Shown piece by piece: positions 10,032 through 24,107 of a stretch of 64,000 nt of DNA. Where the stretch lies: NCBI RefSeq assembly GCF_004217135.1, contig NZ_SHKK01000001.1:5890001-5954000 (forward strand), in the 5' to 3' direction. Source of the stretch: Micromonospora violae (lineage in GTDB: Bacteria; Actinomycetota; Actinomycetes; Mycobacteriales; Micromonosporaceae). Below the pieces are notes generated by a model. It searched no databases. It was not told the origin of the DNA and saw nothing but the letters and a program-made list of their open reading frames with translations. The translations under genes were made by a program, and so were the position numbers. Position 1 is the first letter of the stretch, and every line of letters starts with the position of its first letter.

Positions 10032-10289
10032 CTACCGGTCGCCGTAGTGGTACCGGCAGGCGACGATTTCGACGTCGTCCTTGGTGATCCGATACACCAG
10101 CCGGTGTTCACGATCGATCCGGCGGGACCAGAAGCCGGCCAGCTCTCCCCGCAGGGGTTCCGGCTTGCCGATGCCCTCGTATCCGTTGCGCATCACGTCA
10201 GCGATGAGATCGTTGATGCGCTTGACCAGCTTTCGGTCGGTGTGGCTGAGGTACTGGCTCCAGGCCGTCGCGGTGAAGACGAGCCTCAC
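10032..10289 (-). CDS. yoeB: YoeB/Txe family mRNA-interferase toxin
   Basis: 85 residues with the RelE-like fold signature of YoeB: KLVKRINDLIADV helix, GKPEPLRGELAGFWSRRID, REHRLVYRI, and the C-terminal CRYHYGDR with the catalytic His-Tyr pair. Members cut mRNA at the ribosomal A site. It overlaps the antitoxin gene by four bases. All family residues appear intact, so it is probably active. It lies between the relic AICE and the tRNA-derived att repeat. Confidence 0.92.
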   Translation of the reverse strand: MRLVFTATAWSQYLSHTDRKLVKRINDLIADVMRNGYEGIGKPEPLRGELAGFWSRRIDREHRLVYRITKDDVEIVACRYHYGDR

Positions 10290-10561
10290 GCGACGTCCCG
10301 CACGGTGGCCGGGTCGATCAGGTCCCGCTCGGCCGCGTCACCGTCCTCAAGCTCGGCGATCGATCGGCGTAGGGCTGCGGCGTTGGCCGGGTTGCGCAGG
10401 AGATACTCGGTTTCCTTCATCGCCTCGTACTCGGCAAGCGGGACAATGACCACCGGTTCGTGGCCCGACCGGGTCACCACCACTTCCTCCGCGTCGTTGA
10501 TGACGCTGTCGAGTTCGGCGGCCAGGTTCTGGCGTAGTTGGGTGAAGTTCACGGTCCGCAT
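10286..10561 (-). CDS. yefM: YefM/Phd family antitoxin
   Basis: 91 residues from ATG 10561, with GGAGG six bases upstream; a longer frame start at 10636 is not supported. MRTVNFTQLRQNL and the VVVTRSGHEPVVIVPLAEYEAMKETEYLL segment are typical of the Phd/YefM DNA-binding fold. The acidic C-terminus (LEDGDAAERDL) is the expected toxin-neutralising tail. It is the upstream partner of yoeB and presumably represses the pair. Confidence 0.92.
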   Translation of the reverse strand: MRTVNFTQLRQNLAAELDSVINDAEEVVVTRSGHEPVVIVPLAEYEAMKETEYLLRNPANAAALRRSIAELEDGDAAERDLIDPATVRDVA

Positions 10562-10662
10562 GACGACCTCCAGGTCAGGTACAGAAAACTGTACCTCGGG
10601 CGGGCGCCGTTGCCCCACTCGTGACCGATGCCGCATCTCGCTGCTGTACGCGCCGTGCTGAC

Positions 10663-10689: not shown

Positions 10690-10698
10690 CGAGCTGCA

Positions 10699-10733
10699 AG
10701 AGAGTGGGCCGCCAGGGACTCGAACCCTGAACC
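10699..10733. repeat. attL: displaced 3' end of tRNA-Lys
   Basis: These 35 bases are identical to 24030-24064, which include the T-arm and acceptor 3' half of tRNA-Lys(TTT). Identity stops at both sides (10698 a versus 24029 t; 10734 c versus 24065 t). This marks the left end of the integrated element. Confidence 0.9.
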
Positions 10734-11295
10734 CCTCCCGTGCCGGATTGATCATGGCGAATCGGGCGGATCGACACTCTGACCTGGGCGAAGTCTTCCG
10801 ATGTCTGACAGCCGTTTACAGCTCTTCTCGGCCTCAGATGTGCCGGATCTGTGCCGGACGATCATGTCCTCGGACTCGTCGTTGTCCTGCCTCCAGGCTG
10901 TCCGACGGTGGCCCAAGCCCTGAACTGCGGTGCCGGTCGGCTGCGGTCGACGGAGTTCGCCTGGCTACCTGTCGAGACCAACGGTGCCAGGCACGGTCGC
11001 CGTCAGGTCCGACAGGGCTTGCCGGTTCAGGGCGCGCGCCATATGAACTAGACGATCCTCTAGCCGTGGGTGCAGCTCTCATCCATAAAGATCCGCTAGC
11101 CATCTTGTCCGATCGACTGCATCAACTAGTAGGGACACGCCTTGGCCTACTCGGCTGAGTCTTTCGGCTGTCTAGGCCATCAGCAGCATGGGGTTGGACA
11201 CTCAGCGTCTCATCGACCAAGCTGTCAGTTATGCCTCGGCCGTGGTCTAGCTCACGCCCTCAGGTCCGGTCCTGCGCCCCTCGGGAAGTTGGATC
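10734..11295. other. Left-end non-coding region of the AICE with Int arm-type repeats
   Basis: 562 bases without a supported gene; the only long frame crosses the att site. TGTGCCGGA occurs at 10839-10847 and 10850-10858, an 11-base spacing matching a similar TTGTGCCC pair beside attR. These are candidate integrase arm sites. Confidence 0.5.
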
Positions 11296-11646
11296 ATGAC
11301 CCGGAAGTGGGACTTTTACCGGGCCGCTGGAGGGGGAGACCCTGTGCGTAAGGAGATCCTCAAATCAAGACTTACGAAGGCTGAGGCTGCCAAGGTCCAA
11401 GCCATCATGGACCGAGTGGCTGAGGGGCGCACTCGCCCCGGCGATGTCAAGCCGCTGCGCGACGGTGTGCTTGAGGTGCGTATCCGGGTGGGTGACCGCC
11501 GCCTCAGGCTGGCGTTTGCGGAGGGGACGGACAGCCTCGTCCTCCTGGCGCTCCACTTCTTCCAGAAGCAGCAGCAGAACGAGAGCCGCCACGTCGAGGT
11601 CGCTGTAGATCGTTTTCGTGACTGGAAGTCACGACACGGCGGGTAG
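11296..11646 (+). CDS. higB: HigB/RelE-type toxin of a toxin-antitoxin-chaperone module
   Basis: 116 residues of the RelE superfamily, Gp49/HigB-like branch. WDFYRAAGGGDPVRKEI is the usual opening. VKPLRDGVLEVRI and DRRLRLAFAEG carry the conserved basic core, and LLALHFFQKQ precedes a C-terminal helix. Such toxins cut translated mRNA. It precedes its antitoxin, the reverse of the classic order but normal for HigBA. A dyad operator and the antitoxin start follow the stop by 7 and 54 bases. It is cargo at the left end of the AICE. Confidence 0.85.
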   Translation: MTRKWDFYRAAGGGDPVRKEILKSRLTKAEAAKVQAIMDRVAEGRTRPGDVKPLRDGVLEVRIRVGDRRLRLAFAEGTDSLVLLALHFFQKQQQNESRHVEVAVDRFRDWKSRHGG

Positions 11647-11652
11647 TGCGAT

Positions 11653-11670
11653 TATCGCTTATAGGCGATA
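11653..11670. promoter_or_regulatory. Dyad operator between toxin and antitoxin
   Basis: TATCGCTTATAGGCGATA is a near-perfect 18-base palindrome (arms TATCGC/GCGATA) located 7 bases after the toxin stop and 30 before the antitoxin ATG. It likely controls a separate antitoxin-chaperone promoter; binding by HigA is inferred. Confidence 0.6.
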
Positions 11671-11700
11671 CGCTAGCGGCCAACCAAGGGGAGCCAAGAC

Positions 11701-12093
11701 ATGGGGAACGAACTTTTCGATCTTCTCGGACTGGATCCGGACAATCCTCGCGTTCGGGCTATGCTCGAAGACGCTAAGGGTGTCGAACGCCTGGTCGACA
11801 CACTTGTTGGCCTGAGGGTTCGCCAGGGCCTCACCCAGGCCGATGTGGCCAGCGAGATGGAAACAACGCAATCAGCCGTATCGAGATTTGAACGATCGGG
11901 TGGAGATCCGCGACTTTCGACCGTCCAGCGCTATGCGAGGGCAACCGGCGGTCGACTGCGGATGATGGTGGAGGTGACCCGCCCCGCCGCGTCCTGGGAG
12001 GCGAGCTTCCACATTCCCTCTCCGGTCGACAGTGACATAGATGAAACGGACAGTCCGACGGAGCTGTGTCCCGTAATTGAACTGGCGTCATGA
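11701..12093 (+). CDS. higA: HigA-type XRE antitoxin with C-terminal extension
   Basis: 130 residues. Residues 37-90 are a Cro/C1 helix-turn-helix (RQGLTQADVASEMETTQSAV, then RFERSGGDPRLSTVQRYA). Residues 95-130 form an extra tail (SWEASFHIPSPVDSD) beyond the minimal antitoxin. In mycobacterial toxin-antitoxin-chaperone systems a comparable C-terminal chaperone-addiction segment binds a SecB-like chaperone, and the next gene here looks like one. AAGGGGAG lies upstream of the ATG. It overlaps the next gene by four bases. Confidence 0.85.
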   Translation: MGNELFDLLGLDPDNPRVRAMLEDAKGVERLVDTLVGLRVRQGLTQADVASEMETTQSAVSRFERSGGDPRLSTVQRYARATGGRLRMMVEVTRPAASWEASFHIPSPVDSDIDETDSPTELCPVIELAS

Positions 12094-12572
12094 CCTCAAA
12101 AACTGTCTCCAGTTTCGCTGAGTTCATCACTCTACTCAGCCTTAAAAACGTGCGCGTGTATGAGGTGTCGGCGCGGCGGCGTGACGGTTTCGACACGGAG
12201 GAAGTCCCCGTTGATGACGGTTTCTCGGATCTGCACGTGCAGCAGGGGATATCGGACGAGGGTTTCACGTTCCGCGCTCGAATCGAGATCCGTAGCGAGC
12301 GGGCAATAATAAGAAGTGACGTCGCAGCGATTTTCGAAGTAGCTGAGGAGATCAGCAGACCGCCTAACGAGGTTCTTGATGAGTTTGCTCACGAGGCCGG
12401 CTTGCCGGCAACAATGCCTTATCTTCGCGTTTATGTGCAGCAAGCGGCGCGACTAATTGGGGTGTCGGCTCCGTTGATCAAACACTACTGGGGCAGCGAG
12501 ATGCGGCAACTTGAGATGCGTCATGATAAGCCTCAGGACGATGAAGAGGATCCCGAGATGTTGGGTCAGTAG
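12090..12572 (+). CDS. SecB-like chaperone of a HigBA-linked TAC module
   Basis: 160 residues. The second half follows the SecB pattern. A strand pair (FTFRARIEIRSE, then IRSDVAAIFEVAEE) leads to a helix and the segment TMPYLRVYVQQAARLIGV followed by SAPLI, which parallels the FPYARECITSMVSRG region of SecB. The ATG overlaps the HigA stop by four bases, the tight coupling expected of a chaperone needed to stabilise its antitoxin. A charged tail (DEEDPE) ends the protein. The identification rests on pattern and context; a plain hypothetical remains possible. Confidence 0.65.
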   Translation: MTSKTVSSFAEFITLLSLKNVRVYEVSARRRDGFDTEEVPVDDGFSDLHVQQGISDEGFTFRARIEIRSERAIIRSDVAAIFEVAEEISRPPNEVLDEFAHEAGLPATMPYLRVYVQQAARLIGVSAPLIKHYWGSEMRQLEMRHDKPQDDEEDPEMLGQ

Positions 12573-13160: not shown

Positions 13161-13478
13161 ATGTTTGCCCTAGTGGTGCGATTCGATCTCAAAGACGAGG
13201 AGAGCGCTCAAGCGTTTGACGCGCTTGTCGCCGAGACTGGGATTCAGATCCGTGCTCAAGAACCGGGGACGCTGATCTACGCCACGCATTCTGTCGAGGG
13301 TGCGCCGCTCGCCCGAGTCTTCTACGAGTGCTACGCCGACCGAGAAGCATTCGAGGCGCACGAGGTGCAGCATCACGTGATCCGCTTCCACAAGGAGCGC
13401 GAACCGTACACGCAGGACGCGCGGGTTGAGTTCCTAACGCCCGGGCCTAGCAAGGGCCTCGGTTCACTGAATGCCTGA
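13161..13478 (+). CDS. ABM-fold (quinol monooxygenase-like) small protein
   Basis: 105 residues from ATG 13161 with AGAAAGG 8 bases upstream; an upstream ATG at 13122 is possible but lacks a site. MFALVVRFDLKDEESAQAFD, EPGTLIYATHSVEG and FYECYADREAFEAHEV give the ferredoxin-like antibiotic-biosynthesis-monooxygenase pattern. Such proteins oxidise quinone-type substrates without cofactor or merely bind small molecules. It overlaps the XRE-TPR gene by 8 bases, so the pair is one unit; an AICE-borne sensor role is possible but unproven. Confidence 0.75.
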   Translation: MFALVVRFDLKDEESAQAFDALVAETGIQIRAQEPGTLIYATHSVEGAPLARVFYECYADREAFEAHEVQHHVIRFHKEREPYTQDARVEFLTPGPSKGLGSLNA

Positions 13479-14667
13479 CAGCAACGAGCAAGGTCGACTT
13501 ATAGCTACGCGGCGGCAGAAGCGTGGGCTTTCTCAGCGTGAGTTCGCCGAGATGATCGGACGGTCTGAGGCTTGGCTTTCGCAGGTCGAGCGTGGGGTAC
13601 GTTCGATCGATCGGGTCTCCATCTTGGAGCGGATTGCGGGTGCGCTCGGCATCCCAATGGCCGAACTAGCCCCGGGCACTGCGGATCCGGAGAACGCCGA
13701 GGTCCCCTCGGCGGCTGCCGCCCTACGTTCGGTGCTAAGCACCAGCTACCTCATGGCCGCGATCCTCGGCAAGGACCGAGAGCTTCCCCTGCCCCAGACG
13801 GCCGAGCGAGCCGAGCTGTGCTGGACGTACGCACACGCCGCCCGTTACGAAGACCTAGCCGAGCTGCTGCGGGGCCTCCTGCCGGATTTGGAGAGAGCAA
13901 CACGATCCGCCACAGGCGAGGTGCGAAAGACGTACCTCACCGAGCTGGCGTCGGCATACCACGCCCTCTCAGCCGCACTATCGAAGCTTGGCCAGCATGA
14001 AGCGGCCTGGGTCGCAACCGATCGAGCGCTGCTCGTTGCCGAGCAGGTCGGAGACCCGCTATTGGTCGCCGCTGGAACGTTCCGCCTCGCCCTGGTGTTT
14101 CAGGGCGGACGGCAATTCGAACAGGTTATAAGCGCTGCATCGTCGTCCGCGGCAGCGCTTGAGCCCGAGGCATCGGCGGACAAGCCGGCGGCCGTGTCGC
14201 TGTTCGGCGCACTGAACCTGCAACTGGCTGTGGCCTCTGCACGGATGGGAGACGACCAAAGGGCTCAGGAGTATCTTGCAGTTGCGCGAGAGGCAGCCCA
14301 GCTCCTAGGGGTCGACCGCAACGATTACGAGACCGAGTTCGGCCCCACCAATGTCCAGCTACACGAGGTCGCGGTGGCAGTCGAACTCGGCGACGCCGGG
14401 TCTGCGCTCCGGACGGCGGAGCGGATCGACCCGTCCGTCCTATCGTCTGAGCGACAGGCTCGGCTCCTCATGTACGTGGCACAAGCCTGGACTCAACGCC
14501 GCAGGGTCTCGGAGGCGGTCGATGCGCTTGAGCAGGCCGAGGCGCTGACCCCGGAGCAGGTCAAGGGACACCCGGTGGTCGAGACCATGGTTTCCGACCT
14601 TCTACGGATGGAGCTCACCCCTTCTGACCGACTCGCAGCCTTGGCGCGCCGCGTAGGAGTGGCCTAG
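13471..14667 (+). CDS. XRE regulator with TPR-like sensor region
   Basis: 398 residues. Residues 8-65 are a helix-turn-helix (RQKRGLSQREFAEMIGRSEA, then WLSQVERGVRS). Residues 100-390 are helical repeats of TPR character (YHALSAALSKLGQHEAAWVA; VASARMGDDQRAQEYLAVAR; AVDALEQAEALTPEQ). This architecture resembles peptide- or ligand-responsive regulators. It is the only stand-alone DNA-binding regulator of the element apart from HigA and Xis, so it is a candidate binder of the GTAC-rich and GACACGTACGTGTC sites. Terminator at 14695-14723. Confidence 0.85.
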   Translation: MPDSNEQGRLIATRRQKRGLSQREFAEMIGRSEAWLSQVERGVRSIDRVSILERIAGALGIPMAELAPGTADPENAEVPSAAAALRSVLSTSYLMAAILGKDRELPLPQTAERAELCWTYAHAARYEDLAELLRGLLPDLERATRSATGEVRKTYLTELASAYHALSAALSKLGQHEAAWVATDRALLVAEQVGDPLLVAAGTFRLALVFQGGRQFEQVISAASSSAAALEPEASADKPAAVSLFGALNLQLAVASARMGDDQRAQEYLAVAREAAQLLGVDRNDYETEFGPTNVQLHEVAVAVELGDAGSALRTAERIDPSVLSSERQARLLMYVAQAWTQRRRVSEAVDALEQAEALTPEQVKGHPVVETMVSDLLRMELTPSDRLAALARRVGVA

Positions 14668-14853: not shown

Positions 14854-15186
14854 ATGGGACGTCTGCTGCTGGACACCTCGCGGGTGTCGTACGAGGTCGC
14901 GGTGAACCCGGTTCCGAAGCTGGACCAGACGGGTCAGCAGAAGTTCGACCGGGAGACGAAGCAGCCGATGTGGGCGGTGCAGCTCTACGCCCTGTCGGAG
15001 GGAAGCGCGGAGGTCATCAACGTGACGGTGGTCAGCCCGGTGATGCCGGCGGTGGCTGTTCGTCAGCCGGTGGTTCCGATGGACCTGGAGGCGCTGCCCT
15101 GGGTCAACGACCGCGACGGCAAGGTCCGCTCCGGTGTCGCGTTCCGGGCGTCGGCGCTGACCGCGATGGAGACCGCCGCCGTCTAG
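14854..15186 (+). CDS. SCO3933-family AICE regulatory protein
   Basis: 110-residue protein of the type that heads the transfer/replication block of actinomycete elements. LLLDTSRVSYEVAVNPVPK, KFDRETKQPMWAVQLYAL and a strand-rich C-terminus (RSGVAFRASALTA) match the SCO3933-like pattern. These are sometimes annotated as activator of plasmid replication, integration and excision (Pra-like). GGAAGGAG lies before the ATG. Whether it activates or represses here cannot be told from sequence. Confidence 0.75.
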   Translation: MGRLLLDTSRVSYEVAVNPVPKLDQTGQQKFDRETKQPMWAVQLYALSEGSAEVINVTVVSPVMPAVAVRQPVVPMDLEALPWVNDRDGKVRSGVAFRASALTAMETAAV

Positions 15187-16347: not shown

Positions 16348-17232
16348 ATGGACCTCACGGACACCATCGAACTGCCCCCGCAGCCCAACGCGCCGCAGAC
16401 GGTGCCGGTCGGCGCGGGCCTGTCCATCTTCGACCCGGTCTTCCTCGGCATCGACGAGTTCGGCCACCCGGCCTACCTGCCGATGATCTACCGCAACATC
16501 CTCATCGGCGGCGAGCCCGGCGCGGGCAAGTCCAGCCTGTTGAACACCATCGTCGGTCACGCGGCGCTGTGCCCGGACGTCCGGTTGTGCCTGCTTGACG
16601 GGAAGCAGGTCGAGCTGGGTTTGTGGAAGGACGCCGCCGACGTGTTCGTCGGCCCGGACATGGACCACGCCATCCGCACCCTGCGCCGGGTGCAGACGGT
16701 GATGGACAACCGGTACTCGTTCCTGCTGGCCCGGCGTCGCCGGAAGATCGGCCCCAACGACCTGTTCGGTCAGATCCTCGTGGCCTGCGACGAGATCGCC
16801 TACTTCTCCGCCACCGCCGGGGACAAGAAGGACCAGGATCTGTTCGCCGCGCTGCTGCGCGACATCGTCGCCCGTGGCCGCGCTGTCGGCATCATCGTCG
16901 CCGCCGCGACTCAGCGCCCGTCGTCGGACATCATCCCGCCGTCGCTGCGGGACCTGTTCGCGTGGCGCTTCGCCGGCCGCTGCACCAACGACGTGTCCTC
17001 GGACATCGTGCTCGGACACGGCTGGTACGCCCGCGGCTTCTCCTCCAACAGCATCGACCCGAACAACCAGGGCGAGGGCTACCTCATCGCCGAAGGCGGC
17101 ATCCCCAACCGCGTGAAGGCCGCCTACATGACCGACGCCGACATCATCCGCGTTGCCGACTACGCCACCTGGACCCGCCGCCGCAGCGGCCTCGCCGCCC
17201 CCGCCGAGTCCGCCTCGAAGGTCGCGGCATGA
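16348..17232 (+). CDS. FtsK/SpoIIIE-type DNA translocase (TraB-like)
   Basis: Hexameric DNA pump for conjugal transfer of double-stranded DNA between mycelia. The 294-residue protein has Walker A GEPGAGKSS (55-63, Lys61), Walker B VACDEIAYF near residue 148, and the DIVARGRAVGIIVAAATQRP segment shared with FtsK ATPases. There is no membrane segment, and it is much shorter than pSAM2 TraSA, consistent with the membrane part being the upstream gene. No clear gamma/wHTH DNA-recognition domain is seen. It overlaps the next small gene by four bases. Confidence 0.88.
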   Translation: MDLTDTIELPPQPNAPQTVPVGAGLSIFDPVFLGIDEFGHPAYLPMIYRNILIGGEPGAGKSSLLNTIVGHAALCPDVRLCLLDGKQVELGLWKDAADVFVGPDMDHAIRTLRRVQTVMDNRYSFLLARRRRKIGPNDLFGQILVACDEIAYFSATAGDKKDQDLFAALLRDIVARGRAVGIIVAAATQRPSSDIIPPSLRDLFAWRFAGRCTNDVSSDIVLGHGWYARGFSSNSIDPNNQGEGYLIAEGGIPNRVKAAYMTDADIIRVADYATWTRRRSGLAAPAESASKVAA

Positions 17233-19761: not shown

Positions 19762-20648
19762 CCACCTCGAAGAACGGCCGCGTCTACGCCTACATCGGCG
19801 CACTGTCCGGCGGCACCGTCTCCGTCGCCGCAAACATCGCTCACTCGTTCATCGCCCCGAAAGACGCTCCGCAGAACTGGAGCCCGGAACCTGGCGCGGT
19901 CATCTCCGCGATCGTGTGGCCACTGTTCCTGTTCATCGCCATCGAGATCCTTGCCCGCACGCCCTGGCCGACCGGCTGGGGTTGGAACGTGCTGCGCTGG
20001 GTCGGGCTCCCGCCCGTCGCCCTGGTCGCCGCGTTCGTGTCCTACCGGCACCTGTCCGGACTACTCGACCACTACAACGAGGAAACCCTCGTCGTCTGGT
20101 TCGGTCCCCTCGCCGTCGATGGCCTGATGCTCATGGCCACCGCCGCGCTACTCGCCACCGGAAACCGCAAAATCCGGCCCACCGAAACTGTCACGGCACC
20201 TGCGTCGGCCACCCTCGCCGAGGCGTCGTCACTCGACATCCCCGCCTCGCCGACGGTCCGCCCGGCCGCCGCGACCCCGGCCACCAACCCCGCACCCGAA
20301 GCGATCCCCGCACCTGCCCACGAACCCACAACCCTGCCCACCTCTGGCGAGGACACCGACACCCCGACGACGGTCGAGCCCACCCCGGCCACCACCGACA
20401 AGGACCCGACCCCGGCACCCGCCGCGCCTGCGGTAGCTGCTGGCCCTGCGCCCGCGCTGCTCTCCGGAGCCCGGATCGTCGCCAGCGCCCACGAGAAAGC
20501 CCACGGTGAACCCATCACCCCCGGCCAGCTCGCTGTGCGACTGCGCATTCCCACCGCCACGGCCGCCGACATCCTGACGGCCCTCAACACCCAATCGAGC
20601 ACCAACGACAAGGCACACAACGGCACCCCTGTGGGAGCCACCGCGTGA
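19758..20648 (+). CDS. DUF2637 membrane protein (Spd-like)
   Basis: 296 residues. Four hydrophobic segments in the first 135 residues (around 12-30, 47-65, 78-97, 112-132, e.g. PLAVDGLMLMATAALLA) fit DUF2637, common in AICEs next to rep and thought to help plasmid spread within mycelium. A Pro/Thr-rich linker leads to a C-terminal helical segment (GQLAVRLRIPTATAADILTA) resembling a small winged helix. GTGA overlap with rep. Confidence 0.8.
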   Translation: MTTSKNGRVYAYIGALSGGTVSVAANIAHSFIAPKDAPQNWSPEPGAVISAIVWPLFLFIAIEILARTPWPTGWGWNVLRWVGLPPVALVAAFVSYRHLSGLLDHYNEETLVVWFGPLAVDGLMLMATAALLATGNRKIRPTETVTAPASATLAEASSLDIPASPTVRPAAATPATNPAPEAIPAPAHEPTTLPTSGEDTDTPTTVEPTPATTDKDPTPAPAAPAVAAGPAPALLSGARIVASAHEKAHGEPITPGQLAVRLRIPTATAADILTALNTQSSTNDKAHNGTPVGATA

Positions 20649-22234
20649 CGTCCTCGACGTTGCCTCTCGTGCCCGAAACCACCACGGTTTCGGGCACGGG
20701 AGCCTGCGCTGAGTCCGCCGACTACTGGCCCTGGGCCACCCCCACCACCGGCCCGCGCAACCCCGCCGCCGACGGGTGGGTACGCGGCCACGACCCGCGC
20801 ACCGTCGCGTCCGGCCGCGCCCGCGCCCAAGACCCCGACTACCCGGAATGGCTCGGCCACGTCCGCGCCGCGTCGGCCTGCAAGCACCCCATCCGCCTCG
20901 CCGGGCAGATCCACGTCAACGACGCCGACGGCAACCGCATGGCCACCGTCGACACCGAGGACATGCCCGACGGCGCGATCTACACCCCCTGCGGCAACCG
21001 CCGCGCCGCCGTCTGCCCGTCCTGCGCCGAGCTGTACCGCCGCGACACCTACCACCTCATCAAAGCCGGCCTCCAAGGCGACCGATGGGGACTACCCCCG
21101 CTCAACGAACACATCGCCATCTTCCTGACCGCCACCGCACCATCGTTCGGCCCGGTGCACCACCGGGTGGTGAAAGTTCACGCGGCGGACTGCCGCAAGA
21201 AGGACGGCTGCACCTGCCGGCCCTCGGTCTGCCACCCCTTCGGCCGCACCTGCCCGCACGGCGTCGAGCTGCGCTGCGGGCAACGCCACAAGGCAGCAGA
21301 CACCCACCTCGGCCAGCCGCTATGCCTGGACTGCTACAACCACACCGGCCAAGTCGTCTGGAACCACGAAGCACCCGAACTGTGGCGCCGCACCATCCAA
21401 CAAGCCGACCGGGAACTACGCCGCCTCGGCCGCACCCACGGCGTGGACCTACGCCGTCGCTACATCAAGGTCTACGAATTCCAGGTACGCGGCGTCATCC
21501 ACTACCACGCTCTGATCCGCCTCGACGGGTACAACCCCGACTGCCCCGAGGCCATCGTCCCGCCGCCCCGCGCCATCACCCGGGACATGTTCGAGCAAGC
21601 CGTCCGGGCTGCGTTCGTCAAGACCGCCTACACCTCCGCCCCGCACCCCGCCAACGGGCGGCAGGGCTGGCACATCGCGTGGGGCGACAAGGGCCTGGAC
21701 CTCAAGCACGTCAACGCCCCCGGCACCGAGGTCAACCTCGCCCAGATCACCGGCTACATCGCCAAGTACGTCACCAAGAGCACCGAGGTAACCGGCCTGA
21801 GCCTGCGCCGCGTCGACGACCTCTCCGTCCAGATCCACGGCGACCCCGGCACCCACCTCGGCCGGCTCATCCGCGCCTGCTGGGACCTCGGGGAGCACCC
21901 CCACTACGACCGGCTTCGCCGGTGGGCGCACCAGTTCGGCTACGGCGGACACATCGCCACCAAGAGCCGCGCCTTCTCCGTCACCCTCGGCTTCCTGCGC
22001 CTCCAACGCACCATCTGGCGACGCACCGAAGGCCACCCCCACACCTGGGACGACGAACAGACCGAACGGGTCATCTACGAACTCGGCTACCAAGCCACCG
22101 GGTGGATCACCACCGGAGACGCCCTACTCGCCAACACCGCCGCCGCCATGGCCCGCGCACAACACCTCGCCGGCATCGACGCCCTGGCCGACGAACTCAC
22201 CGCCGCTCACGCGGTCCAACCCCTGGCCGCTTGA
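20645..22234 (+). CDS. Replication initiator protein of the AICE (RepSA type)
   Basis: 529-residue initiator for autonomous rolling-circle-type replication of the excised element. A Cys cluster (CGNRRAAVCPSC, 116-127) and further Cys/His pairs precede the HUH metal motif GVIHYHALIRL (His286, His288). YIAKYVTK (371-378) supplies candidate nicking tyrosines. The C-terminus has GDALLANTAA, shared with the relic at 9.7-9.9 kb. The GTG start overlaps the DUF2637 stop. The stop codon lies inside a copy of the element palindrome. Confidence 0.9.
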   Translation: MTSSTLPLVPETTTVSGTGACAESADYWPWATPTTGPRNPAADGWVRGHDPRTVASGRARAQDPDYPEWLGHVRAASACKHPIRLAGQIHVNDADGNRMATVDTEDMPDGAIYTPCGNRRAAVCPSCAELYRRDTYHLIKAGLQGDRWGLPPLNEHIAIFLTATAPSFGPVHHRVVKVHAADCRKKDGCTCRPSVCHPFGRTCPHGVELRCGQRHKAADTHLGQPLCLDCYNHTGQVVWNHEAPELWRRTIQQADRELRRLGRTHGVDLRRRYIKVYEFQVRGVIHYHALIRLDGYNPDCPEAIVPPPRAITRDMFEQAVRAAFVKTAYTSAPHPANGRQGWHIAWGDKGLDLKHVNAPGTEVNLAQITGYIAKYVTKSTEVTGLSLRRVDDLSVQIHGDPGTHLGRLIRACWDLGEHPHYDRLRRWAHQFGYGGHIATKSRAFSVTLGFLRLQRTIWRRTEGHPHTWDDEQTERVIYELGYQATGWITTGDALLANTAAAMARAQHLAGIDALADELTAAHAVQPLAA

Positions 22235-22248
22235 CACGTACGTGTCAA
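22231..22248. promoter_or_regulatory. Element palindrome copy 3, between rep and xis-int
   Basis: TTGACACGTACGTGTCAA overlaps the rep stop codon and lies 85 bases before the small gene that leads xis and int. It probably controls the excision/integration unit. Confidence 0.75.
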
Positions 22249-22332
22249 CACCAGTGAAGCCGTTCCTTGACAACTCCACAGCGCACGCAACAACCCACCC
22301 ACCCACCCAACCGACACCGGAAGGAGCACGCC

Positions 22333-22536
22333 GTGCCCACACGTCCCCGCCCCCTGGTGGCGGTCCGACTCATCGGCCCGACCGCCACCGTCACCGCCCA
22401 CGCCGCCACCATCGCCGCTCAGCTCACCGCCCACTACGGCCGCGACCGGGTCACCTGCCGCACCAGCACCCGACCCGCCGGCTACAGCGGCGAAAGCCGC
22501 ACCTACATCACCATCACCCGAAAGGAGCCACGATGA
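22333..22536 (+). CDS. Small AICE protein (67 aa) before xis
   Basis: GTG start with GGAAGGAG just upstream; reads PTRPRPLVAVRLIGPTATV and ends overlapping xis by four bases. Helix AATIAAQLTAHYG and a strand-rich tail. Position matches small genes seen between rep and xis in AICEs. Function unknown. Confidence 0.6.
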   Translation: MPTRPRPLVAVRLIGPTATVTAHAATIAAQLTAHYGRDRVTCRTSTRPAGYSGESRTYITITRKEPR

Positions 22537-22727
22537 CCGCACCCACCCCTACCTCGCCGCCGGAACTGTGGTCGATCACAGAGACGGCCGCGTTCCTCCG
22601 CATCCCCGTCGGCACCCTCTACCAATGGCGGCACCGCCGAACCGGACCACGTGCCTCCAAAGTCGGCCGACACCTGCGCTACAACCCGGCCGACGTCCGG
22701 GCCTGGCTGGAAGACCAGGCGGCCTGA
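22533..22727 (+). CDS. xis: Excisionase (MerR-like helix-turn-helix)
   Basis: 64 residues: ELWSITETAAFLRIPVGTLY then QWRHRRTGPRASKVGRHLRY, the excisionase/MerR-type winged helix that bends attachment-site DNA and steers the integrase towards excision. AAAGGAG precedes the ATG. It ends one base before the int ATG. Confidence 0.92.
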   Translation: MTAPTPTSPPELWSITETAAFLRIPVGTLYQWRHRRTGPRASKVGRHLRYNPADVRAWLEDQAA

Positions 22728-22728
22728 C

Positions 22729-23970
22729 ATGGCAATCGACGACCTGTGGTACCTGAAAAAACGCAACCCGGACACCAAGAAGTTCATCCCCTCGAAGCGG
22801 CACGGCCGAGGCAAGCGCTGGCGGGTTCGCTACACCGACGCCGACAACGAAGACCGCGAGAAGCTATTCCATCTCAAGCGCGACGCGGACACCTTCGACC
22901 TGGAGTGCCGTTCAGGGGCAGCGCCCGAGGTTCGGGTGAAGCGGGAAGCAGCTCGACTGACCTTCGCCGAGTACGCGCAGCGGTGGAGGGAAGCCCGGGA
23001 ATCCGGTTGGGCAACCGAGACGCGGCGGCGCATTCCGCAGAACCTGCGAAAGCATCTCCTGCCCGTCTTCGGCGAGAAGGCCATCCGCTCTATCAACTTG
23101 ACTGACGTGCTGGCGTGGCTGAGCCGGCTACTCGATGACGGCACGCCGAAGTCGTCGGTCAGTCTGTACTTCGGCCTGTTCAAGACCATCATGAACGCCG
23201 CCGTTATCGACAAGGTGATTCCGGACAACCCCTGCAACGGGGTGAAGCTCGCGCAGATCCTGCGTGGTTTGTCGCGGGCACCGAAGTGGGTTCCCACCGG
23301 CGACCAGGTGCTCAAGCTCGCCGAGGTGGTGCCGCGCCGATTCCGGGCCGCTGTGTGGTTGGGGGCAGGGGAGGGGCTTCGCCTCGGTGAGGTTTTGGGC
23401 ATGGAGGCCGGGTCGCGCTGCGCCGATTATGAACGTGGAGAGCTGCACGTCGTCCAGCAGCTACGGCACTCGCCGGAGCACTTCGGCGGCTTCTACCTCT
23501 CGACGCCCAAGAGCGGTTCCACTGGCACCGTGGACCTGGACGCGGTGGTCGCCGAGGAACTGACCGCACATCTCAGCGAAGTCGGCCCGGTCGAGTTCGA
23601 CCTTCCCGACATCACCACCGGGGAGCGGCTGACTCGTCCGGTGGCCGTCCTGTTCACCTCGGCCCGGGGGAAGCTACTGACCGACACCTACTGGTCGGAG
23701 TTGTGGGCGGACTGGCGCGAGGCGGCCGGATGGCCGAAGGAAGGCACGTTCCATTCCCTGCGCCACTTCTTCGCCACCACGCTGATGAGCAACGGCGTCG
23801 AGCCGCAAGAGGTGCAGAAGGCGCTACGGCACGCGAACCTGCGGATCACGCTGGAGACCTACGTTCATTGGCTGCCGAAAAAGGACCGCCCGCGCGGCTT
23901 GGTGGGCAACCTCCTGCGGCAGGCAGACGGCCAGCGGCGGGAACCCTCCACCGGCCAAGATCGGATCTAG
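22729..23970 (+). CDS. int: Tyrosine site-specific integrase
   Basis: 413 residues. The N-terminal arm-binding part is residues 1-70, the SAM-like core-binding part 78-175, and the catalytic domain 185-385, with Arg218 (GLRLGE), Lys261, His342 and Arg345 (HSLRHFF), His368 (LRHANL) and nucleophile Tyr378 (ETYVHW). The full RKHRHY set is present, so it should be active. It ends 60 bases from attR in the tRNA-Lys gene, the usual placement for AICE integrases targeting a tRNA. Confidence 0.95.
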   Translation: MAIDDLWYLKKRNPDTKKFIPSKRHGRGKRWRVRYTDADNEDREKLFHLKRDADTFDLECRSGAAPEVRVKREAARLTFAEYAQRWREARESGWATETRRRIPQNLRKHLLPVFGEKAIRSINLTDVLAWLSRLLDDGTPKSSVSLYFGLFKTIMNAAVIDKVIPDNPCNGVKLAQILRGLSRAPKWVPTGDQVLKLAEVVPRRFRAAVWLGAGEGLRLGEVLGMEAGSRCADYERGELHVVQQLRHSPEHFGGFYLSTPKSGSTGTVDLDAVVAEELTAHLSEVGPVEFDLPDITTGERLTRPVAVLFTSARGKLLTDTYWSELWADWREAAGWPKEGTFHSLRHFFATTLMSNGVEPQEVQKALRHANLRITLETYVHWLPKKDRPRGLVGNLLRQADGQRREPSTGQDRI

Positions 23971-23990: not shown

Positions 23991-24029
23991 GATGATCTTT
24001 GCCTGGCGTTTTTGCAGCTCAGGCGGGCT

Positions 24030-24064
24030 AGAGAGTGGGCCGCCAGGGACTCGAACCCTGAACC
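24030..24064. repeat. attR: element copy of the tRNA-Lys 3' end
   Basis: Identical over 35 bases to 10699-10733. It supplies the acceptor 3' strand, T-arm and variable loop of the intact tRNA-Lys(TTT), so integration preserves the tRNA. Confidence 0.9.
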
Positions 24065-24107
24065 TATGGATTAAAAGTCCACAGCTCTGCCATTGAGCTA
24101 GCGGCCC
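24036..24107 (-). tRNA. tRNA-Lys(TTT)
   Basis: 72 bases on the minus strand fold fully: acceptor GGGCCGC/GCGGCCC, D-stem GCTC/GAGC, anticodon stem GTGGA/TCCAT with loop CTTTTAA (anticodon TTT), T-arm with TTCGAGT, discriminator A; CCA is not encoded. The 3' 29 bases come from the integrated element. The original downstream terminator now lies at 10663-10689. Confidence 0.95.

Follow-up and report, generated by a model that had tools for sequence, protein, structure and literature searches.

We describe a three-gene module of Micromonospora violae with the make-up of a toxin–antitoxin–chaperone (TAC) system, whose growth-stopping toxin is very probably restrained by an antitoxin that depends on a dedicated SecB-like chaperone. 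The module lies on the + strand of a 64,000-nt stretch of DNA (the window), whose source genome is a single contig of 7,139,733 bases. It comprises genes for a HigB/RelE-type toxin of 116 residues (11296..11646), an XRE/helix-turn-helix (HTH) antitoxin of 130 residues (11701..12093) and a SecB-like chaperone of 160 residues (12090..12572). From sequence comparison and structure modelling, we consider it highly likely that these are the parts of a TAC module, namely a toxin of HigB type, an HTH antitoxin whose tail is disordered and a protein of SecB fold, acting through the mechanism proposed below.

The module and its conservation

Three features of TAC systems are present at the locus. Matches to PF05973 and to HigB1 in the PDB identify a type II toxin gene; the antitoxin belongs to a known family and carries a C-terminal extension whose core motif was not found at the chaperone-less loci read; and a SecB-family chaperone, recognised by predicted fold and by profile, is encoded in the same operon. 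The chaperone ATG (12090-12092) shares the bases ATGA with the antitoxin stop codon (12091-12093). A sequence-only reading of this DNA had described a RelE/HigB toxin, an XRE antitoxin with a C-terminal extension and a third gene overlapping the antitoxin stop, together forming a TAC-type module. All three open reading frames are present on the + strand, the toxin matches Gp49 (PF05973, 1.2e-6, over the cut-off), the antitoxin matches HTH_3 (1.7e-9) and has a tail of about 40 residues, and the overlap spans four bases. The TAC assignment is further supported by the predicted fold, the chaperone profile and the HigB1 match of the toxin.

Relatives were sought in a family sample of 300 genomes, evenly drawn from a larger group, and in a genus sample of 160. 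The third protein occurs in 5 of the 300 family genomes, the source genome included, and an antitoxin search of the 160 genus genomes added two more. At all seven loci the toxin–antitoxin–chaperone order and the 4-base overlap between antitoxin and chaperone genes are kept. Substitution patterns were summarised as pN/pS, the ratio of non-synonymous to synonymous differences, given as raw proportions uncorrected for multiple hits over short stretches. The mean is 0.27 for chaperone residues 91–134 over the seven loci, and 0.38 for the toxin (0.21 in the four closest loci), where one toxin (L005) starts at GTG and its compared stretch began two codons early. Since genes, order and overlap are retained in 7/7 loci and non-synonymous differences are fewer than synonymous ones, the trio is not a chance arrangement.

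The nearest relatives of the module are in Micromonosporaceae (Salinispora, Micromonospora, Winogradskya). A pattern scan with the chaperone family profile, A2, over contigs of 84,980 species gave at least five loci, in Salinispora oceanensis, S. vitiensis, S. fenicalii, Winogradskya humida and a Micromonosporaceae metagenome-assembled genome (MAG); this count is a lower bound because the pattern-based scan missed the locus of Micromonospora sp. NBC_01699. Querying genome contigs and viral contigs with the third protein confirmed no relatives, and the A2 profile found 13 sequences among 5.8 billion proteins, the window's own included. In a 20-sequence tree the 13 chaperones of Micromonosporaceae type group as one clade (support 100/99), with the placement of two long rows unsure, in keeping with the separate chaperone branch that the sequence-only reading had suspected. 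By this sequence evidence, the TAC-type module is part of a rare, separate Micromonosporaceae branch of a known kind.

The SecB-like chaperone

The sequence-only reading had seen a SecB-like second half in the 160-residue protein and proposed comparing its predicted structure with SecB. The prediction gave a SecB fold over residues 7–136, with Rv1957 as the nearest structure (20–22% identity in Foldseek alignments); the likeness to SecB therefore stands, while its restriction to the second half does not. Searches with the single sequence in Pfam, NCBIfam, PHROGs, PADLOC and PDB sequences gave no result, and in particular no SecB match in Pfam or NCBIfam. The protein is single-copy in the source genome, where no PF02556 (SecB) match was found at E 0.01. 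Matches resembling TetR, MerR and IF2 were rejected as a sign of DNA binding, none being significant (best E-value 0.037), and structural matches ranked eighth or lower, for the most part beta-lactamases, were dismissed as background.

The toxin and the antitoxin tail

Among solved structures, the toxin is closest to HigB1, which is the M. tuberculosis TAC toxin (9.1e-11 over residues 4–115, PDB). Nine pocket residues of HigB1 are named in PMC9098466, and six of them (K58, E66, R68, R77, F93 and Q98) are retained by the window toxin in the printed alignment.

AlphaFold2, run with 22 aligned sequences, placed five helices within antitoxin residues 4–81, and gave a predicted local distance difference test (pLDDT) score below 50 to residues 106–125 and 127–130. 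The tail (91–130) consists of two constrained islands separated by a variable linker: over the seven loci, pN/pS is 0.22 for W99–P106 and 0.28 for the last four codons, as against 0.66 for the linker and 0.32 for the antitoxin body, the islands being only 8 and 4 codons long. The first island, W99-E-A-S-F-H-I-P106 (11995..12018, + strand), fits the motif W-x(2-4)-[YF]-x-[IV] and is probably a chaperone-binding stretch of the kind called ChAD (chaperone addiction domain). The second ends in L-A-S (12082..12090, + strand), a possible ClpX-type degron that reads LAS at six of the seven loci and LSS at one. Different loci use different synonymous codons for L, A and S, which rules out that the nucleotide overlap alone forces this ending.

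The tail core follows the chaperone. The antitoxin search gave 46 matches in 44 of the 300 family genomes; 30 of these loci were read, together with two from the genus sample (L050 and L051). Both genus loci are complete and 5/30 family loci have toxin and chaperone relatives, while in the flanks available for the other 25 both relatives were absent by tblastn at E 0.01. The core motif, which was written after inspection of the seven tails, is found in 7 of the 32 antitoxin loci, exactly the seven with a chaperone. The C-terminal pattern is found in 8/32; L048 and L049 are scored as misses, the script having matched something unintended there. In a separate set of 33 antitoxin protein hits, 12 carry the core.

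Proposed mechanism and probable control site

In the TAC logic described in PMC5105189, PMC6377645 and PMC8165232, the chaperone is recruited by the tail of the antitoxin and in turn protects the antitoxin, which blocks the toxin. Following this scheme, the window antitoxin would bind and neutralise its toxin, by homology a ribosome-dependent mRNase, and would recruit the chaperone through the W..[YF] core of its tail. The chaperone would then shield the antitoxin from aggregation and from ClpXP. Without chaperone, the C-terminal L-A-S would be fed to ClpXP and the toxin freed, such that titration of the chaperone by misfolded or phage proteins, or loss of its supply together with the mobile element described below, would lead to growth arrest. 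By analogy, the two islands of the tail would match the two duties reported for TAC antitoxin tails: chaperone binding by an aromatic core, and signalling to ClpX from the C-terminus. ChADs vary in length and sequence according to PMC5105189, and a different core is therefore expected in another TAC.

The gap between toxin and antitoxin genes contains a perfect palindrome, TATCGC-N6-GCGATA (11653..11670), at 7/7 loci, probably the operator to which the antitoxin would bind. Each locus has a single copy in the 1.7 kb read, always in this gap and with variable inner bases, and the whole 7.14-Mb genome has the palindrome at one place only (control pattern, 0). No half-site of it was found within 330 bases upstream of the toxin at any of the seven loci. 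Its right end is overlapped by a −10-like hexamer, TACGCT (11669..11674, + strand), conserved as TAYGMT in 7/7 loci, at which an internal promoter is probable. The four closest loci share a conserved block, GTTGGACACT...TCGAC.AAGCT.TC, some 55–105 bases ahead of the toxin (about 11190-11240 in the window), perhaps a promoter of the toxin itself.

If the palindrome is the operator, control of the toxin is separate from that of its two protectors, and with operator and promoter both between toxin and antitoxin, antitoxin degradation would switch on antitoxin and chaperone only. In such a scheme the antitoxin would repress the internal promoter at the palindrome, its loss would raise antitoxin and chaperone and leave toxin unchanged, and the selective increase would reset the system. 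A self-resetting TAC, with each activation pulse followed by selective resupply of antitoxin and chaperone, is a proposal from the site layout to which we give somewhat less than even credence. If true, it would differ from the mycobacterial TAC, where the antitoxin represses a promoter upstream of all three genes, and it would operate on an actinomycete integrative and conjugative element (AICE), in a host with no other SecB visible to the searches.

The mobile element and genomic surroundings

As the sequence-only reading had proposed, the module lies inside an AICE-like element, delimited by 38-base direct repeats that enclose about 13.3 kb. The left att repeat (10696..10733) is a piece of a tRNA-Lys 3′ end, 97% identical over 38 nt to the right att repeat (24027..24064), which lies in the 3′ end of tRNA-Lys (24035-24107, − strand). 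The trio begins 562 bases inside the left repeat. Behind it, all on the + strand, lie genes for an XRE/tetratricopeptide repeat (TPR) regulator of the element (13471..14667; HTH_31, 2.1e-11; NsdA-family-like at 1.3e-5, below the cut-off), an SCO3933-family-like regulatory protein (14854..15186; 9.4e-22, 77.2 bits, just under the cut-off of 80), an FtsK/SpoIIIE translocase that is probably the conjugation pump (16348..17232; PF01580, 8.2e-15), a RepSA-like replication initiator (20645..22234; NF041486, 3.9e-87, 293 bits, below the cut-off of 700), an excisionase-like HTH_17 protein (22242..22727; 6.6e-12) and a tyrosine integrase (22651..23970; PF00589, 1.8e-15; phrog_1, 1.7e-47). Just outside the left repeat, on the − strand (10032-10636), is a YoeB–YefM pair (PF06769, 9.2e-33; PF02604, 5.2e-23).

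The other six genomes were compared for PF00589, serine integrases not being searched: it is absent from the contig carrying the trio in two (G074, 12.4 kb; G216, 117.8 kb) and from within about 49 kb of the trio in the remaining four, the nearest being in G810, where the contig stops about 6 kb past the trio. Four of these six genomes have RepSA-like genes elsewhere. No tRNA was found in the 12–20 kb around four of the six loci (G810 and G818 not scanned), and none of ten flanking proteins at four loci matched a mobility family, two having no match at all. In a Micromonosporaceae MAG (L015:2999-5050), an N6 DNA methylase gene directly adjoins the trio, and the two are perhaps part of a defence island.

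Biological role and alternative readings

Phage defence and upkeep of the element are about equally likely as the purpose of the module, a general stress response less so. In the first case, which we put forward tentatively and by analogy, the chaperone would be a sensor: phage proteins would titrate it, the antitoxin would be degraded and the freed toxin would abort the infection. CmdTAC of E. coli works in this manner according to PMC11618068, where a capsid protein displaces CmdC and CmdA, which ends LAA, is degraded by ClpP. The methylase gene beside the trio, at one of the four loci with neighbours scanned, fits such a role, as does the lack of a nearby tyrosine integrase at the other six copies, by which selection there is probably not for element upkeep. 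Against it, PADLOC models hit neither the toxin nor the third protein, and hit the antitoxin only through its HTH parts.

The sequence-only reading had favoured addiction cargo of the AICE, in which loss of the element ends the supply of chaperone and antitoxin, leaving the toxin to kill or stall cured cells. The location of the trio within an element with RepSA, FtsK and integrase genes, 562 bases in from its left att repeat, speaks for this role, and Wozniak and Waldor (2009) reportedly described a toxin–antitoxin system that maintains an integrative and conjugative element. However, a tyrosine integrase was found near the trio at only one of the seven copies, that of the window; in the other six genomes the contig either has none or has it no closer than about 49 kb, and the flanking proteins at four loci show no mobility family (0/10). 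The addiction role is thus not established, and we consider it possible but doubtful.

Several observations weigh against the TAC reading itself. The structural match to SecB is moderate (root mean square deviation 4.3–5.2 Å), no PF02556 match reaching the gathering score was obtained for any of the seven family members, and the A2 profile alone retrieves no SecB chain in the PDB, only a chance endonuclease match. The tail core, W-x3/4-[YF]-x-[IV], departs from the mycobacterial W-x5-Y (108-WHRLSSYR-115), whose key R110 has no evident counterpart. The LAS terminus resembles the classical LAA but differs from it, and is also not VA; in L051 the tail ends LSS. Two antitoxins, P0018 and P0020, lack the core at 61% and 56% identity over 84 and 89% of the query, their neighbours not having been seen. 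The toxin pocket, finally, differs from HigB1 at three of the nine positions (N73 to D, K95 to Q with an adjacent Lys, and K99 to Q), and K95 to alanine abolishes HigB1 toxicity according to PMC9098466; RNase activity of the window toxin is therefore not assured.

The last point would suit a degenerate or repurposed module that has lost RNase activity and serves as a regulator, with Gln at both the K95 and K99 positions. We consider this improbable given the constraint on the toxin (pN/pS 0.21 in the four closest loci, 0.38 in all seven) and the Lys found immediately after the K95 position in all seven toxins. Similarly improbable is a plain two-gene HigBA pair whose SecB-fold neighbour has another job (e.g., export) and is unneeded for neutralisation, for although a general role is conceivable in a host where no canonical SecB was found (PF02556, E 0.01), the start codon overlaps in 7/7 loci, the tail core is restricted to the chaperone-bearing loci among the 32 read, and SecB-like genes also lie directly behind HTH genes in phage and plasmid relatives.

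Comparison with known systems and related loci

Beyond the Micromonosporaceae clade, Gordonia phages and Rhodococcus plasmids also carry SecB-like genes next to HTH genes. Of the four stretches read, three have a SecB-like gene that overlaps the HTH gene by 4 bases and an HTH product that ends LAA or LAV; in the fourth the SecB-like gene starts one base after the HTH stop. These proteins fall outside the clade, and three upstream proteins scanned at the phage and plasmid stretches had no Pfam match. In phages Blueberry (KU998236.1, L054:3023-4420) and Horus (L055:3039-4444), the SecB-like gene lies in the lysogeny region and shares 4 bases with an HTH gene for a product ending LAA, which the Blueberry record names ‘immunity repressor’; Blueberry gp42 had no match in the PDB. 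Of 12 phage records, 11 have the SecB-like match touching a gene for an HTH protein, regulator or repressor, and the twelfth a ‘hypothetical protein’. The arrangement suggests phage TACs, or phage repressors guarded by a chaperone; for Gordonia phage Wrigley, a SecB-like protein is already published (PMC9670969). On the plasmids (L057:3069-4432 and L056:3334-4468) the SecB-like gene is directly behind an HTH gene. The HTH protein of L057, a locus next to Tni-type transposition genes, ends ALAV and is preceded by a small protein of 88 residues; that of L056 is without an ALAV-like ending.

An HTH gene precedes the SecB-like gene in both L007 and L008, and the gene before it is Gp49-like in L007 (5.4e-4, below the cut-off) and without a Pfam match in L008. 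In L007:503-1916 (G447), the protein encoded behind the XRE gene has 335 residues and appears to be a fusion of a SecB-like domain with a C-terminal region. L009–L011 (1.6e-4 to 3.8e-4) were excluded from counts. L012:1447-2739 (G781), in the same order, has three genes in the same layout and its SecB-like protein matches Rv1957 directly (1.4e-6), so that the order probably has more than one TAC-like branch.

The window module resembles the mycobacterial TAC (HigB1–HigA1–Rv1957) in its toxin–antitoxin–chaperone order, its HigB toxin, its SecB fold nearest to Rv1957, and an antitoxin extended at the C-terminus, with an aromatic core and a hydrophobic end (Val-Ala in HigA1; PMC8165232). It differs in a chaperone only 20–22% identical, in some catalytic positions of the toxin, and in a probable operator between toxin and antitoxin, whereas the palindrome at which HigA1 is reported to repress overlaps the −35 of a promoter located upstream (PMC3968373). 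With CmdTAC it shares a SecB-like chaperone guarding an antitoxin with a C-terminal ClpP degron (PMC11618068), although the toxin there is an ADP-ribosyltransferase and here of HigB type. In contrast to canonical SecB (PF02556), the window protein is unrecognised by the Pfam model and is coupled to a toxin–antitoxin pair.

Among the matches listed by a search of the open-access full-text literature, judged by titles and the beginnings of abstracts and with subscription journals and preprints outside its scope, none treats this branch. The TAC kind is already known, while the branch, the tail motif and the operator position appear new. TAC systems have been detailed from few examples, and this distant branch, mostly annotated as hypothetical, apparently keeps the TAC logic with a different tail motif and control layout. 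It is suited to tests of how chaperone–tail specificity shifts and of a feedback loop private to the antitoxin–chaperone pair, and it bears on whether a chaperone-guarded toxin on an actinomycete conjugative element serves upkeep or phage defence.
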